A DNA stretch of 64,000 nucleotides from Motilimonas sp. E26 (lineage in GTDB: Bacteria; Pseudomonadota; Gammaproteobacteria; Enterobacterales; CBDFNC01), in the NCBI RefSeq assembly GCF_021278025.1, contig NZ_JAIBHJ010000015.1:1-64000 (forward strand). Direction: 5' to 3'. Each line of letters starts with the position of its first letter. Position 1 is the stretch's first letter. Shown here in pieces: positions 1 to 7,048 of this stretch. The translations under genes were made by a program, and so were the position numbers. The notes under the pieces were generated by a model. The model worked only from the letters and a program-made list of their open reading frames with translations, did not search any database and was not told the origin of the DNA.

Positions 1-689
1 GGCGTTTTACCTTGACTGTATGCGCTATACAGCGCCATGAATTCTTTGATTAATATACCGACCGACCAGCCGTCTGAGGCAATATGATGGACACACAGCA
101 ATAATTGCCAGTAAGTTTCTGACACCTTGACCAAAGTTACTCGTATCATAGGAGCAACTTCTAAATCAAAATTTGAACTTGCTATTTCTTGCGTTAAGGC
201 TTGTAAGCGTTGCTCACGCTCATGCTTATCAAAACCTGTAAAGTCCTGAACGTCGATATTAAAGTCCAAACAATCTTGCACTATTTGATAAGGAACAGAT
301 TCAGCTAAATGATAAGTGGCTCTTAGTGATTCATGGCGTCGAAGGATGGTTTTAAAACTTTCATTCAAAGCCTTTAGATCAAACTTTCCATTAAAAGAGA
401 TACTTCGCATGATATTATAATGAGCACTACCTTGAGACATGCTATCTAACAGCCATAACCCTTGCTGACTGAATGATAAAGGGCAATATGCAATATCACT
501 TGGTCGGGACTCTATGACCGGTATCGACTGCTTAAGCAACGCAGAAATGATACCCTCTTTATTATTAATAATGCTTTGTTTTAATGTATCTGTTAGCGCA
601 CCCTTTGCCGCTTTAAACGCAAGTTTCCCTTGGTCTAGATAGAGTTTTACGCCGGCTTTTGCCACATCATTTAGTACCTCAACTGACAT
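1..689 (-). CDS. Nonribosomal peptide synthetase, N-terminal part (TubC-type docking domain + condensation domain), runs off window
   Basis: The reading frame is open from an ATG at 687-689 to the window edge (about 229 residues), so only the N-terminus is present. Residues 1 to about 50 (starting MSVEVLNDVAKAGVKLYLD) look like a TubC-type N-terminal docking domain, the small fold that receives the C-terminal tail of the preceding synthetase. From about residue 65 a condensation domain follows, with the YCPLSFSQQGLW start motif and the active-site HHxxxDG motif (VHHIASDGWS, about residues 202-211). It lies 16 bases after the stop of the upstream NRPS gene, so it is co-transcribed and probably takes the peptide intermediate from it. 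By eye the base composition (about 43-47% GC in sampled lines) is higher than in the two genes upstream. The substrate of the next module cannot be read here. Confidence 0.9.
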   Translation of the reverse strand, partial: MSVEVLNDVAKAGVKLYLDQGKLAFKAAKGALTDTLKQSIINNKEGIISALLKQSIPVIESRPSDIAYCPLSFSQQGLWLLDSMSQGSAHYNIMRSISFNGKFDLKALNESFKTILRRHESLRATYHLAESVPYQIVQDCLDFNIDVQDFTGFDKHEREQRLQALTQEIASSNFDLEVAPMIRVTLVKVSETYWQLLLCVHHIASDGWSVGILIKEFMALYSAYSQGKT

Positions 690-705
690 CGACTATTATC
701 CTTAT

Positions 706-3700
706 CTAGAAAAATCCATCTTCAAGTTCAACTTCGGCATCTAGTCCCCTAGACGAGGTTAATAAGGCATTATCAATTACAGATGCAACTTCATAGATCG
801 ATGCATTCTCAAAAAAATCCCTAATTGATAACTTGACTGAAAATTCCTCAGAAATCATTCCTAATAACTTTGAGATCTTTATAGAGTCACCGCCCAGAGA
901 GAAAAAGTCATCATAAATAGACTTAACAGGTAAACTGAGGTCTTCCGACCAAATTTTAAAAAGTACTTCTTGAGTCGTATTATTTGCTATGCCATCAGTA
1001 ACATAAACTTGATCTACTGGTAAAACCAAAGCTCGTTTATTAACCTTGCCATTTGGTAACAACGGTATTTCCGAAACAGGTAAAACTCCATTTGGAAGCA
1101 TGTAGGAAGGAAGTTTCTTTGAAATAAGTCTTAACAAATCCTGGTGTTGATAAAAGTCATTATAAACAACAAAAACCTGTATACCATTTGAATCGAACTT
1201 GACACAAGCATCTTTAACAAAATCAAATGTTAAAAGGCAAGACTTAATTTCGTTCAAGTCAACTCTTTGGCCTCGTATTTTTACTTGATCGTCTGTCCTT
1301 CCAAAACATTCCAGTACACCATTACTCACCCTCCTTACTAAGTCACCCGTTCGAAACATTTTTTTGAAAAATGATGGTTCACCCTTTATATAAAATGGAT
1401 TATCGAGAAAAACTTCTCTTTGAAGAGAAGGGTTATTTAAATACCCTAGCGCTAAACTTTGACCAGATATATATAATTCCCCAATTTGTCCGTAAGGTAC
1501 AACTTGCAAGTTTTCATCTAGAACATATGTTTCTACATTATCAATACTACTTCCAATAGGAGCGTTAAACCCTCCTAGGCTTTCAAAAGATTCATTATCT
1601 ATTAAACATAATAAATTGTCATAACAGTCCTGATTTCTTTCAATATATTCACTAGATATAAATATCTGTTCATTTATAAGTTCTATAATATCATCTGTTG
1701 TGGTTAATGGATTTGATAAAACAACTCTAAAAACCCAGTTAACTCTACCTTCAATACTAAGTGACGTTTTGGAGGAAAAAGTATTATTTCTTTGAAATTG
1801 TATCTTCTGGATTTTTTTTGTAGCCTCATTAATCTGTTCAACTTCGTCTTTTGAATAATTTTTTTTGAATCTTAGTGATATAGGGATATATCTGTAATTT
1901 ACTATATTTAGGTCTGGCTTACCCACTAACTCAAACGCATCAGTAGTTTCAATAAGTCGTACTAAAAAATTAGTAAGGTGGACACTTCTATCAATAAGCC
2001 AAGAATAGCCTTTAAGGCCCAATATTTTTAAGCTTGAATAAAGAAGTAAAGATTGTGCAGGACGAGACCCCTCAATGGTATACTGCCCAAGGTCAAAACT
2101 ACCTTTATTTGATTGATAATTTGCGTAAGTAGCAATTGATGATGCTGAAGTAGGATCTTTAAACAAGCATAAACTGATACCTTGCGAGATATAAAGCATT
2201 TTATGTGGGCAAAAAGTAATGGTATCAGCTTGATCAATTCCTATTAGTCTATGCTTATTATTTTGTGACAACTTAAAAGCACCACCCCAAGCAGCATCTG
2301 CATGAAAGTGAATATTTTCTCTTGAAGCAACTCTAGCAATTTCACTTAAAGGGTCAACGGTACCAGTCTCTGTCGCGCCAGAAATACCAACAATGGCAAT
2401 AATTAAAATATTATCTCGTCTGCATTCCTCGATAGCACTATTAAGACTATCAATGGACATTCTTCCATCTTTGTCTTTATCAATATAAATTATTGAATTT
2501 TCACCTAACCCCATGAGACTAAGGCTTTTTCTAATAGAATAATGCATAAGATCTGTACCAAGCACTACTGCTCTAGGTAAACCAAGCTTATTCAACCAAT
2601 AATAAAATCCATCACTTCGAATATCATATTCTGCTACTCCAAGTTTCATGAGAGCATTATTTCTAGCGTAAGTTAGTGATGTTAGATTAGCCACGCTACC
2701 ACCACTTGTTACAGCGCCATATACAAAATTTGGATTTTGTGATTCTAGATAAAATTCATTAGGATGATCGTAGAACAGCCTATGCATCATAGCCAGAACT
2801 TGACGCTCAATCAAAGTAAAGCTATTGGATGTTTCTACCTTAACCATATTCTGGTTTAGTTTCGATATCAACTTACTTAGCTCTGGTATGTAGCTAGGTA
2901 ATTTCGATGTCATATGACCTATATATTTTTTATCACTAACATCAATACTGTTTGGTATAACTCTTTCATTTAAGTCATTTATAAATTCTTGAAAAGGAAT
3001 ACCTTCTTCCGAAATAATGGTATCAGAAAATGAGCCTTTAAAACCTTCATCAGTATCAATACATTTTTTAGATGAAAAAGCATCTTTTGATATGTTGAAT
3101 AAACCCTCTCCATGTTGATCTTCAAAAAAATAATTCATCACGCTTCTATTGGATTCGTAGCCACTTACTTCGTGGAATGTTGAATCACCACCTGTCTCAC
3201 TAGAACCATATAAGTTGATAAGTTTAGTTGTAGGTAATGCCTGGAAAAACATTCTAGCTTGGTCAATCCCTAATTGTTCTCCACTGGATATAACAATTCT
3301 TAAAGTTTTTAAATATTCGAGAGTAGAAGTATCAATCAAGGATTGTAAAAATGATGGTACAAGTGTTAAACGAGAGACTTTTTTTCTTTGAATTATTTTT
3401 TTTAGTTCGAATGGTGAAAGGAGCTCTTCTTTCGATAAAACAATAAGTTCATTACCTGCGACTAACGGCTGTAAAACTTCTGCTAAGTGGTCTACAAAGC
3501 TTACCGAGGTTTTAAAAGAAAAAACATCATCTGGAAGTGTTGGGTACTGTTTTTCAAACCAGCTTATACGATTAACGAGAGAATCATGACTCCCAATAAC
3601 TCCTTTAGGTACTCCGGTAGATCCTGATGTATAGATAATATACGCTGCATTATCAATGAAAAAGCTTTCATCTTTACTAAAATCTGAATAGTTACTATTG

Positions 3701-5367
3701 ATTTCTTCTATTCCAGAACTCGATACTTTCAAGCTACTCGTTGAGTCTTTAAGAATAAAATCAACCCGTTCTACTGGATAAGAAGGGTCAATCGGGACAT
3801 AGATTAACCTTGATTTAAAAATTGCAATCATCCAAGATATCAACTCAATACTAGGATTAAGCTGAACCGCAACTCGTTTACCTGAAGATAGTCCATAGTT
3901 AACTTTTAAAACTTCAATTTTTTTATTAATATCTTCCCACAAATCTTTATATGAGTAATTAACTCCAAAACTATAAACTGCAACTTTATCTCCGTTTTTT
4001 TCAGCCGTTCTTTCGATTATGTCTGATATATTTCCCTCTAAATACTCATTGATTCCAATGCCGCTTCGCGATATTGCTCTTTCCCTTTTATCATAAAATT
4101 CAATAACTTCATTTGGACTATTGCATATAAAATCAACTAAATTCAAAAAATCGTCTCTAATTTCTTTTATATCACTAATACTAAAATATGACTGATTAAA
4201 CTCAAGCCTCACTTCTAAAGAATCCGACTCCCAGAAATTAAATTGTAAAGGTGTTTGGTCCAATCCATTACTTAAACCAATAATCTCAACAACAGATCCC
4301 TCGACGAATGTAGTAATTTCTTTTGTTTGGTAGTTAAATCCAATTTCATACACCTTATCTCCACCTGAATAATCAGCTAGACTTTTTAAAATCTTGCTAT
4401 GAGGATATTTCTGATATCTGAAAGATCTGGAAACAGAAGCCTTAACGTCCTTCGCAAAATTAACAAAAGTTTTACCTCTATTTGGAATAACTCTAATAGG
4501 TAGGATGCTTGTGAACATGCCTACTTTAGACTTTTCAACAGCCGATGTTCTATTATGTGTTGGACAACCGATAAAAAATTGTTTGTTTGCATAAAATCTA
4601 AAGCTAAAAACTGCAATAATACTTAAGTAAATCTGCTGTACTGACATAGATATATTATCAGCCAAAGATTTCAGGTTTTCATGAGTTCGTCCATTAATAG
4701 TAAACTTAGTCGTTTTACTCGGAACGAGACCTTTTTTAAAATTGTTCTTATAAAATGGAGTAAAAACAGGTTCAGGAACATATGCAACTTCATTAATCCA
4801 GAATTTTTCATCTCTTAAATAGCGAGAACTATTAATATATTCAAAATCAAACTCGACTATAGTCGACATTGAAGGATCTTGACTTTCCGATACTCCGTAA
4901 TTATATATTTCACAAAGCTTAGTAAGCCAATTGTTAACTCCTATACCATCCATTAAAATATGATGAAATAGGATTACAAATCTATAATCATTTTCGTTAA
5001 TTTTTACAAGCCAGACTTCATAAAGTTTCTTATATGTAATTGGAAGTTCATAATTTTTTACTGATAGTAATAGCTCACTAAAATCAAACTCAGGATTTAA
5101 TTTATCACTAAAATCAACAAGGTTTATATTTGAATCTAACTCTCCATTTTTAATTTGGTAAGGAACTCCATTATCTTCTATAATATAGGTTTTAAAAACA
5201 TCATGAGTCTGTATCACTTCAATATGTGATTCTTTAAACTTTGCCACATCGATTTTAGGCAGTTTCATAAATCCAAATATATTATATTGTGTATTAGAGC
5301 CGTTCTTTACAGAGTCAAAAAAGACGTCTTTCTGAACTAAAGTCAATTCCAATTTATACTCTTCCAC
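706..5367 (-). CDS. NRPS module C-A-T with a PLP-dependent decarboxylase embedded in the adenylation domain
   Basis: This is a 1553-residue peptide synthetase. Residues 1-430 are a condensation domain with an intact HHILMDG motif at 135-141. Residues about 445-1450 are an adenylation domain: YTSGSTGVPKG (A3) at 579-589, NLYGSSETGGDST (A5) at 718-730, GELYISG (A6) at 1296-1302, RTGDL (A7) at 1339-1343, GRTDDQVKIRGQRVDL (A8) at 1356-1371, and PNGKVNK (A10) at 1438-1444. Between A5 and A6 a normal domain has a few dozen residues; here about 520 residues are inserted (see 1594-3165). Residues about 1463-1535 are a carrier domain, LGGDSIK, with phosphopantetheine serine S1495. There is no thioesterase. 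The acidic C-terminal tail (GLDAEVELEDGFF) could be the peptide that binds the docking domain of the next protein. Family assignment is secure. Substrate (beta-alanine made from aspartate) is inference. AT-rich, suggesting transfer. Confidence 0.93.
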   Translation of the reverse strand: MEEYKLELTLVQKDVFFDSVKNGSNTQYNIFGFMKLPKIDVAKFKESHIEVIQTHDVFKTYIIEDNGVPYQIKNGELDSNINLVDFSDKLNPEFDFSELLLSVKNYELPITYKKLYEVWLVKINENDYRFVILFHHILMDGIGVNNWLTKLCEIYNYGVSESQDPSMSTIVEFDFEYINSSRYLRDEKFWINEVAYVPEPVFTPFYKNNFKKGLVPSKTTKFTINGRTHENLKSLADNISMSVQQIYLSIIAVFSFRFYANKQFFIGCPTHNRTSAVEKSKVGMFTSILPIRVIPNRGKTFVNFAKDVKASVSRSFRYQKYPHSKILKSLADYSGGDKVYEIGFNYQTKEITTFVEGSVVEIIGLSNGLDQTPLQFNFWESDSLEVRLEFNQSYFSISDIKEIRDDFLNLVDFICNSPNEVIEFYDKRERAISRSGIGINEYLEGNISDIIERTAEKNGDKVAVYSFGVNYSYKDLWEDINKKIEVLKVNYGLSSGKRVAVQLNPSIELISWMIAIFKSRLIYVPIDPSYPVERVDFILKDSTSSLKVSSSGIEEINSNYSDFSKDESFFIDNAAYIIYTSGSTGVPKGVIGSHDSLVNRISWFEKQYPTLPDDVFSFKTSVSFVDHLAEVLQPLVAGNELIVLSKEELLSPFELKKIIQRKKVSRLTLVPSFLQSLIDTSTLEYLKTLRIVISSGEQLGIDQARMFFQALPTTKLINLYGSSETGGDSTFHEVSGYESNRSVMNYFFEDQHGEGLFNISKDAFSSKKCIDTDEGFKGSFSDTIISEEGIPFQEFINDLNERVIPNSIDVSDKKYIGHMTSKLPSYIPELSKLISKLNQNMVKVETSNSFTLIERQVLAMMHRLFYDHPNEFYLESQNPNFVYGAVTSGGSVANLTSLTYARNNALMKLGVAEYDIRSDGFYYWLNKLGLPRAVVLGTDLMHYSIRKSLSLMGLGENSIIYIDKDKDGRMSIDSLNSAIEECRRDNILIIAIVGISGATETGTVDPLSEIARVASRENIHFHADAAWGGAFKLSQNNKHRLIGIDQADTITFCPHKMLYISQGISLCLFKDPTSASSIATYANYQSNKGSFDLGQYTIEGSRPAQSLLLYSSLKILGLKGYSWLIDRSVHLTNFLVRLIETTDAFELVGKPDLNIVNYRYIPISLRFKKNYSKDEVEQINEATKKIQKIQFQRNNTFSSKTSLSIEGRVNWVFRVVLSNPLTTTDDIIELINEQIFISSEYIERNQDCYDNLLCLIDNESFESLGGFNAPIGSSIDNVETYVLDENLQVVPYGQIGELYISGQSLALGYLNNPSLQREVFLDNPFYIKGEPSFFKKMFRTGDLVRRVSNGVLECFGRTDDQVKIRGQRVDLNEIKSCLLTFDFVKDACVKFDSNGIQVFVVYNDFYQHQDLLRLISKKLPSYMLPNGVLPVSEIPLLPNGKVNKRALVLPVDQVYVTDGIANNTTQEVLFKIWSEDLSLPVKSIYDDFFSLGGDSIKISKLLGMISEEFSVKLSIRDFFENASIYEVASVIDNALLTSSRGLDAEVELEDGFF
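1594..3165 (-). other. Embedded PLP-dependent decarboxylase domain (PanP-like aspartate 1-decarboxylase) within the NRPS adenylation domain
   Basis: Codons about 735-1258 of the NRPS. The core (about 815-1240) is a group II PLP-dependent decarboxylase. It opens with YIGHMTSKLPSYIPELSKLI, very like the putative aspartate 1-decarboxylase PanP of Vibrio and Shewanella as I remember it. It keeps the phosphate-binding TSGGSVAN (887-894), the His expected to stack on the cofactor (H942 in DLMHYSIRKS), the Asp that pairs with the pyridine nitrogen (D1024 in HADAAWGG) and the Schiff-base lysine K1056 in FCPHKMLY, encoded at 2200-2202. Nothing looks broken, so it should be catalytically competent. About 80 residues of unrecognised linker (735-814) precede the core. 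Aspartate as substrate rests on resemblance only; glutamate or an aromatic amino acid are alternatives. Confidence 0.85.
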
Positions 5368-5391: not shown

Positions 5392-6993
5392 TTAATAATT
5401 AATAAGAACGCCTGATTCAAACTTAAATATTTTGTCAGCCAGATAAAAATATCGATCATCGTGAGAGATCAATATAACGGTCTTACCTGATAGCTTTAAC
5501 TCTGGAATAATGTCTTTATAAAATCGTTCTTTAAACTCAGGATCTTGATCTGCCGCCCACTCATCAAATATATATAAATCCCGTTCTTCCATTAGTGCTA
5601 TTATTAAAGCAAGCCTTCTCCTTTGCCCATCAGATAATTTCAAAGTTGAAAACTTATTACCTTCAAGATCGACCTTACCTTTTAACCCAAGTTTCTCTAT
5701 CAAAACTTTAAATTCTTTTATCTTAGCTTCTGTCGGTTGGAAGTTTAACTCTTTGAATAAGTAATAATCTGAGTAAATGCATGAAATTAATTTACGATAT
5801 GACTTTATATTTGAGCTGGTTACCTCTACATCATCAAAAAAAATTGATCCAATATTTGGATAATTATGTAAACTTAGGATCTTTGAAAAAGTTGATTTAC
5901 CACTTCCGTTCCCGCCAACTATAAAGACAACCTCATTCCTATTAATCTGACAATTTATATTTCTAATAGAAAAGTTTCCTTTTGTATATTGAAAACTTAC
6001 ATTTACAAATTTTATGCTCTTCCAGCTTTGGACATCTTGATATTGATTTGAAGCCATTTCACCGGGTAACATATCAATTATCTCATAATATTTTCTGAGT
6101 GATACATTTGCCTTACTCACTTCAGAGGCAACATTCACTAAATATGAAACAGGTCCTGATATGTATATCAACACCATCATCACACCAATTATTTCATTTA
6201 TCTCAAATGATTCAGCATTCAAGAAATAAAAAATTGCAGTTGCAATAATTGTAAAAAAAATAAATTCAGCATAGCCTCTGTTGAATTGAAATATATAGTT
6301 TGCTTTTTTTTCTCTATCGACTACTTTTGTTTCTTTTTTGTATAAACCTTCCTCAATGAAAAAATCAGACTTTTCCGAATTAAGCTTGAGTTCTTTTGCT
6401 CCTAAAATTAAACCTCTAAACCCGTCTTGGAGTTGATCCATTTCTAGCCTGGACTCGGTCATCAGTTTACCACCAAATTTTATTGGAAACTGAAAGATAA
6501 CTGAAGAAATCACCAGCGGAATAAATACTAGAAAAAAAATATCAGTGTTTATATAAGCTAAGTATGAGAAAAGACCAATTAGAGTTGCAATCTGAACACA
6601 TATATCGGGGATTAAATTTGCTCCTGATACGATTCTTTGAACATCAGTATTTAAGGCTTGGTTCAGCTTTGACACACCAACACTTTCTATCTTTTTTATT
6701 TCAGCTTGATTTATTCTTCTATATAACCTTTTCCTCAGTGAGCTAGTTACACCCAAAGAAATATTATTAAGAATAACTTGCGATAAAATTTTTGAAAGCA
6801 GTATAAATAAAAATAATAGAATGAACACTTGCAAGTAACTTAAGTTAATAATTGCTGTCTTTAATTCATCTCCATTTATCGCTTTTAATATGACAGGTAT
6901 GACCAAAGAATGACTTATTCCCGATATAATCCCAATGACTATAGATGCTAACAACATCCTCGGTGAATATTTGTAGAAGACTTTTACTAGCAT
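5392..6993 (-). CDS. Cyclic-peptide/siderophore-type ABC exporter (PvdE/SyrD family)
   Basis: This is a fused membrane-plus-ATPase exporter of about 533 residues. The first 310 residues hold about six membrane segments; the C-terminal 210 are the nucleotide-binding domain with Walker A GGNGSGKST, signature LSDGQRRR, and a Walker B region FDEWAADQDP followed by ISHDDRYF. The DEWAADQDP and SHDDRYF stretches are typical of the PvdE/SyrD family that exports peptide precursors across the inner membrane. It is the first gene of the NRPS operon, 24 bases before the synthetase, so it very likely carries that product or its precursor. The start is uncertain: ATG at 6991-6993 is used here; an in-frame TTG at 7000-7002 has an AGAG just upstream and is a fair alternative. 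Strongly AT-rich. Confidence 0.88.
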   Translation of the reverse strand: MLVKVFYKYSPRMLLASIVIGIISGISHSLVIPVILKAINGDELKTAIINLSYLQVFILLFLFILLSKILSQVILNNISLGVTSSLRKRLYRRINQAEIKKIESVGVSKLNQALNTDVQRIVSGANLIPDICVQIATLIGLFSYLAYINTDIFFLVFIPLVISSVIFQFPIKFGGKLMTESRLEMDQLQDGFRGLILGAKELKLNSEKSDFFIEEGLYKKETKVVDREKKANYIFQFNRGYAEFIFFTIIATAIFYFLNAESFEINEIIGVMMVLIYISGPVSYLVNVASEVSKANVSLRKYYEIIDMLPGEMASNQYQDVQSWKSIKFVNVSFQYTKGNFSIRNINCQINRNEVVFIVGGNGSGKSTFSKILSLHNYPNIGSIFFDDVEVTSSNIKSYRKLISCIYSDYYLFKELNFQPTEAKIKEFKVLIEKLGLKGKVDLEGNKFSTLKLSDGQRRRLALIIALMEERDLYIFDEWAADQDPEFKERFYKDIIPELKLSGKTVILISHDDRYFYLADKIFKFESGVLINY

Positions 6994-7048
6994 ATGAAAC
7001 AAGTTGCTCTATTTATGGGGGGATTGTATTAAAGTGAAACAAGCTAAA

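Follow-up and report, generated by a model that had tools for sequence, protein, structure and literature searches.

An NRPS adenylation domain of Motilimonas sp. E26 interrupted between motifs A5 and A6 by a PanP-like decarboxylase with a probable role in β-alanine supply

Results

Organisation of the interrupted A domain

The window analysed here, the whole 64,000-nucleotide stretch (positions 1 to 64,000 of contig NZ_JAIBHJ010000015.1) from Motilimonas sp. E26, carries a nonribosomal peptide synthetase (NRPS) gene in which the adenylation (A) domain is interrupted by a complete PLP-dependent decarboxylase. Sequence comparison makes it likely that this insert supplies the substrate of the surrounding domain by converting aspartate to β-alanine, which would then be activated and loaded.

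The gene (706..5367, minus strand) starts with GTG and is open across all its 1553 codons without a break. ORF and Pfam analysis of the 1553-residue product gave the order C-A(N)-decarboxylase-A(C)-PCP, all coordinates below being on the minus strand. The condensation (C) domain (4102..5355, residues 5-422; PF00668, E 1.5e-47) contains the motif HHILMDG and is followed by the N-terminal half of the A domain (3166..4014, residues 452-734), in which A1 to A5 were recognized by the Pfam AMP-binding profile and by motifs, A3 reading YTSGSTGVPKG and A5 NLYGSSETG. The C-terminal half (1018..1563, residues 1269-1450) carries A6 to A10, the last as LPNGKVNKRAL, and precedes a PCP (thiolation) domain (781..963, residues 1469-1529; PF00550, E 2.2e-12) with the motif LGGDSIK. 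The motif positions are residues 579 (A3), 718 (A5), 1296 (A6), 1337 (A7), 1356 (A8) and 1437 (A10). A5 and A6 are thus 578 residues apart, whereas an ordinary A domain encoded in this genome (contig C11) has about 60 between them; about 530 surplus residues separate the two motifs. Pfam splits the AMP-binding domain into two stretches flanking a Pyridoxal_deC match at residues 787-1160 (E 1.5e-44). A single reading frame therefore holds a complete second enzyme flanked on either side by core motifs of the A domain, which places the protein among the interrupted A domains.

With its linkers the insert covers about 1564..3165 (residues ~735-1268), between A5 and the stretch APIGSSIDN that precedes A6. 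Within it, the fold-type-I PLP decarboxylase domain extends over 1663..3039 (residues 777-1235; TIGR03799 and PF00282). The PLP lysine K1056 was read in the motif CPHK (2200..2202), and D1024 and H942 are likewise present; the catalytic residues of both enzymes are intact. A preliminary description, made from the letters alone, had reported these three residues, the TSGGSVAN loop (residue 887) and the A motifs flanking the insert in one frame, and all of them were recovered exactly as claimed; the profile matches agree with it as well. Its location of the insert between A5 and A6 also holds, the extent of 1594-3165 being slightly shorter than the one found here.

Upstream and on the same strand lies a gene for an ABC transporter of the cyclic-peptide-export type (5392..7002, minus strand; TIGR01194, 323.9 bits, cutoff 286.2). 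On the other side the 5' part of a next NRPS gene (3..689, minus strand), with a TubC_N docking domain and a condensation domain according to Pfam, is cut by the contig end. Small or end-of-contig NRPS fragments, which are not linked by sequence to ORF 706-5367, were seen on contigs C57, C53 and the end of C11 (loci L014, L012 and L011): T-C-A (code DLWNMSLIWK), T-C-T-C, and A-T-TE followed by a nitroreductase-like gene. They could be the missing remainder of the assembly line.

Structure prediction from the single sequence of positions 985-4050 was unusable (pLDDT 32.7), and an AF2 model built from an alignment of 18 sequences was used instead. It is of moderate confidence (pLDDT 77.8, pTM 0.54), its linkers (model residues 298-410) being poorly modelled. 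In Foldseek, structures of single A domains of about 480 residues (4d56, 4d4i, 4d4g) were matched over about 1017 columns with TM-scores of 0.81-0.83 by target length; for 4d56 the values are 0.83 and 1017 columns, with a gap of the size of the insert. HitB (9l8h), a β-amino-acid enzyme, was matched with a TM-score of 0.82 by target length, and GADL1 and CSAD matched separately (0.77-0.79). Since whole A-domain structures are matched across some 1017 columns, the model suggests that the two halves pair as one A domain around the gap. The refuting condition set by the preliminary description, halves unable to fold together, is with moderate confidence not borne out.

The insert is a relative of PanP

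Among NCBIfam models, PanP (TIGR03799) matches the insert best, with 443.9 bits (E 6.5e-133), and a paralogue described below reaches 480 bits. Since the score is under the equivalog cutoff of 606.1, the insert should be regarded as a PanP relative and not as PanP itself. A published paper (PMC10102598) refers to the Vibrio fischeri PanP as an aspartate decarboxylase. Membership of the group II, fold-type-I PLP decarboxylases (PF00282) is clear (152.7 bits, cutoff 27; lysine, aspartate and stacking histidine present), and the nearest PDB sequences belong to decarboxylases of the diaminobutyrate type and of acidic amino acids, including GADL1 and CSAD. The PLP lysine, the aspartate and the histidine are invariant in the alignment, and the PanP blocks IGHMTS and LNQNxVK are common to the embedded domains, together with the HK motif. 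When the paralogue is compared with its orthologue in M. cestriensis, dN/dS amounts to 0.033 in the insert and 0.020 in the A core; purifying selection on the insert is strong.

The second NCBIfam match, diaminobutyrate decarboxylase, scores 158 bits, far under PanP. This activity was set aside because its product, a diamine without a carboxylate, could not be activated by the A domain. A free diaminobutyrate-type decarboxylase is encoded elsewhere in the genome (contig C14:56542-57609, locus L013), next to an aminotransferase in an ordinary polyamine-type operon.

Specificity code of the A domain

The ten-position code of the A domain was read as VDATISLGDK, positions 235-239 being checked against an alignment with LgrA. 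The usual Asp235 is replaced by valine (Val625) and the aspartate stands one place later, at position 236 (Asp626, 3490..3492, minus strand). Val or Ile at 235 followed by Asp236, as in β-alanine-specific A domains, was thus found. The paralogue has VDATVSIADK, and the pattern [VI]D[AV]x[IVF]S[ILV][AG]DK fits 20 of 21 interrupted A domains. Asp235 opens the code in 28 of the 31 uninterrupted A domains from the same loci; the other three have a code like that of the interrupted ones and belong to the same clade. Insert and code are correlated. At seven of ten positions the code agrees with VDWVISLADK, which we take to be a β-alanine code; a full-text literature search for that string gave no citable paper. 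The code of the host domain is of the β-amino-acid type and probably denotes β-alanine. In the preliminary description the substrate was unnamed; aspartate to β-alanine is proposed here from the PanP-type insert and the code.

A distant relative (L094:7263-10454) is a gammaproteobacterial A-decarboxylase-A protein of 1064 residues without C or PCP domain; its code (VGVTFSIAGK) is degraded and its A3 motif atypical.

Distribution and history of the embedded decarboxylases

A full-length paralogue is encoded in the same genome (contig C67:37350-42077, within locus L009:10974-17303). Its identity to ORF 706-5367 is 34-36% overall and 44% in the A5-A6 stretch. With the organisation TubC_N-C-A(decarboxylase)-PCP-C, it belongs to a separate NRPS locus that has a thioesterase and an MFS exporter.

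About 20 genomes share the A5-decarboxylase-A6 arrangement. A single contig scan gave 19 loci, most with the entire stretch, in Motilimonas eburnea, M. cestriensis, Alteromonas, Fulvivirga, Aquimarina, Pedobacter, a Cytophagales MAG, Fibrobacter MAGs, Acaryochloris and Cyanothece. In all of them the insertion point is identical: directly after A5 and ahead of the (I/V)PIGKP-type stretch before A6. A domains with embedded decarboxylases are a conserved family spread over several bacterial phyla, with members in congeners, Alteromonas, Bacteroidota, Fibrobacter MAGs and cyanobacteria.

The fusion is rare among the sampled genomes. It was counted in at least 4 of 296 genomes of the order (all of one genus) and at least 2 of 369 of the class, in at least 5 of 391 genomes of the order of genome G308 (one truncated frame included), and in at least 1 of 386 and 1 of 396 genomes of the phyla of G308 and G299, where the one is the query genome itself. 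These counts are lower bounds, because most searches scored only 3-4 candidates per genome. Among 72,556 plasmid records, no match covered 80% of the A5-A6 stretch.

In the decarboxylase tree, for which the diaminobutyrate-type enzyme of contig C14 (L013) served as outgroup, two free decarboxylases of Crocosphaera (L050:2029-3726 and L048:1637-3256) are nested within the embedded clade; L050 retains linker-like residues at its N-terminus. Together with these two proteins, the embedded decarboxylases occupy one side of a branch with an SH-aLRT of 100, opposite 33 free-standing relatives, once the outgroup and two Bacteroidota sequences, all of them distant, are excluded; with the two Bacteroidota rows the value drops to 74. 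A strict embedded-only clade without the Crocosphaera proteins was rejected (p-AU 7e-5), so that the latter apparently descend from embedded ones. This suggests a later release of the decarboxylase from the NRPS.

The tree of A domains unites the 21 interrupted domains in one clade (SH-aLRT 100) with three uninterrupted domains whose code is of the same type. Two of these three belong to Pedobacter clusters that also have an interrupted domain, and the third to Chitinophaga. In Pedobacter (L046:1854-12583 and the corresponding part of L043), one interrupted module with a β-alanine-type code is accompanied by a second, uninterrupted one with a near-identical code; because of this pairing, one decarboxylase may feed two modules. 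In Chitinophaga sp. YR573 (L051:1-13055), an uninterrupted A domain (VDWVTSIADK) is encoded in one NRPS cluster with a nearby, separate 491-residue PLP decarboxylase gene, followed by a CmlA-type diiron hydroxylase. This natural split (trans) version ties the A-domain clade to this type of decarboxylase.

Discussion

Proposed function and alternatives

Taken as a substrate-supplying insert, the nested PanP-type decarboxylase would convert free L-aspartate to β-alanine, the surrounding A domain would adenylate it and load the adjacent PCP, and the C domain would condense the β-alanyl unit into a nonribosomal peptide, which may be exported by the neighbouring ABC transporter. Decarboxylation before activation is the simplest order because a PLP enzyme cannot remove a thioester-activated α-carboxylate. 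Fold-type-I PLP enzymes are known as dimers, and the module would dimerise through the insert. An ordinary PanD is also encoded in the genome; the insert would therefore be a local supply and probably not the only source of β-alanine in the cell. A stronger version, in which the insert acts before activation and passes β-alanine directly to the A pocket, either of its own chain or of the partner, while the dimeric insert forces a dimeric module, would make these proteins a distinct class; we propose it tentatively, as less likely than supply as such.

Other functions have been considered. The insert might decarboxylate another acidic amino acid (glutamate to GABA, or a β-substituted aspartate) and the A domain load that product, which would fit the nearness of GAD, CSAD and GADL1 in fold and sequence and the dioxygenase or hydroxylase genes of some related clusters; this seems unlikely, as no curated family is closer than PanP, an aspartate enzyme, and the code is similar to the β-alanine code given above. 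A slightly less probable alternative is that the A domain activates the β-carboxyl of aspartate and that the insert strips the α-carboxylate from β-aspartyl-S-PCP to give β-alanyl-S-PCP. Methyltransferase inserts do act on an amino acid already bound to the PCP, the amine would once more stand β to the activated carboxyl, suiting Asp236, and an α-decarboxylation beside a carrier domain has been speculated upon by Milano et al. (PMC3870968). Yet VDATISLGDK offers no basic residue for a free α-carboxylate, the A10 lysine aside, and both the separate decarboxylase gene of Chitinophaga and the insert-free β-alanine-code module of Pedobacter better fit an enzyme acting on a free substrate.

A passenger or regulatory role of the decarboxylase, with no part in substrate supply, is very improbable. 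β-Alanine would be available anyway through PanD, and the domain does occur as a free protein in Crocosphaera, but the invariance of the active-site residues, the strong purifying selection on the insert and the co-occurrence of insert and code across phyla argue against such a role. An artefact fusing two genes, a danger that the preliminary description had itself raised, has a practically negligible probability: the genome is a draft of 84 contigs, one of which ends within the next NRPS gene, but the same architecture is found in the paralogue on another contig (C67) and in genomes from several phyla that were sequenced independently, and an assembly error is thereby ruled out. Supply of β-alanine by the insert thus stands as the best explanation, and with it the idea, already put forward in the preliminary description, of an interrupted A domain in which synthesis and activation of the substrate would share one polypeptide. 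The novelty then given to it was overstated, as discussed below.

If this reading is correct, an embedded PanP-type domain would be a genome-mining marker for β-alanine in nonribosomal peptides, the A5-A6 loop an additional site of the A domain that tolerates a large catalytic insert, and these proteins natural templates for engineered self-supplying modules.

Comparison with known systems

Jamaicamide contains a β-alanine unit. JamL of the jamaicamide synthase (Lyngbya majuscula, Q6E7J8) was described as having an A domain in which a Pyridoxal_deC domain with a function not clarified there is embedded, one of only two Pyridoxal_deC cases in the set of Milano et al. 2013 (PMC3870968), contrary to the earlier supposition that no decarboxylase insert had been described. 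In both proteins an A domain, the embedded Pyridoxal_deC, the remainder of the A domain and a carrier domain follow each other, and the JamL-type layout C-A-Pyridoxal_deC-A-CP in one protein is found in ORF 706-5367 when its Pfam domains are compared with the published layout (PMC3870968). Unlike the Motilimonas protein, JamL is a PKS-NRPS hybrid (KS-AT-ADH-KR-CP-C-...), the two being compared here by their described layouts. JamL was not recognised in the cyanobacterial genome samples or in the families of the two other cyanobacterial matches. Because JamL was reported earlier, the protein of ORF 706-5367 counts with this sparsely known kind, of which further published cases may exist, the literature search having covered open-access papers. 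Added here are the A5-A6 site, the spread over several phyla, the shared code, the near-single-clade history, the apparent release in Crocosphaera and the split version in Chitinophaga. The oddity of JamL thereby becomes a family whose insertion site is fixed, whose code is shared and whose predicted reaction is open to a single enzyme assay.

The reviewed interrupted A domains carry only methyltransferase, oxidase, monooxygenase or reductase inserts, typically at a8-a9 and sometimes at a2-a3 (PMC11355689 among other reviews), in agreement with the preliminary description. As in the methyltransferase-interrupted TioS, KtzH and TioN (PMC11355689), a second enzyme is nested here in one A domain and adenylation would be retained. 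In those proteins, the inserts occupy a8-a9 or a2-a3 and work on a residue already bound to the carrier, whereas the insert of ORF 706-5367 lies at A5-A6, outside both usual sites, and is proposed to act on a free precursor before activation. As a8-a9 is the typical site and a2-a3 an occasional one according to the reviews, A5-A6 is regarded as an unusual site and not as a sign of non-membership.

With PanP (TIGR03799) the insert shares fold, motifs and probably the reaction; PanP is free-standing, whereas the embedded copies score under the PanP cutoff and group, with the two free Crocosphaera proteins, in a clade of their own. Chitinophaga sp. YR573 (L051) has an A domain of the same clade (VDWVTSIADK) and a related decarboxylase gene in its cluster, but there the decarboxylase (491 residues) has a gene of its own and nothing interrupts the A domain.
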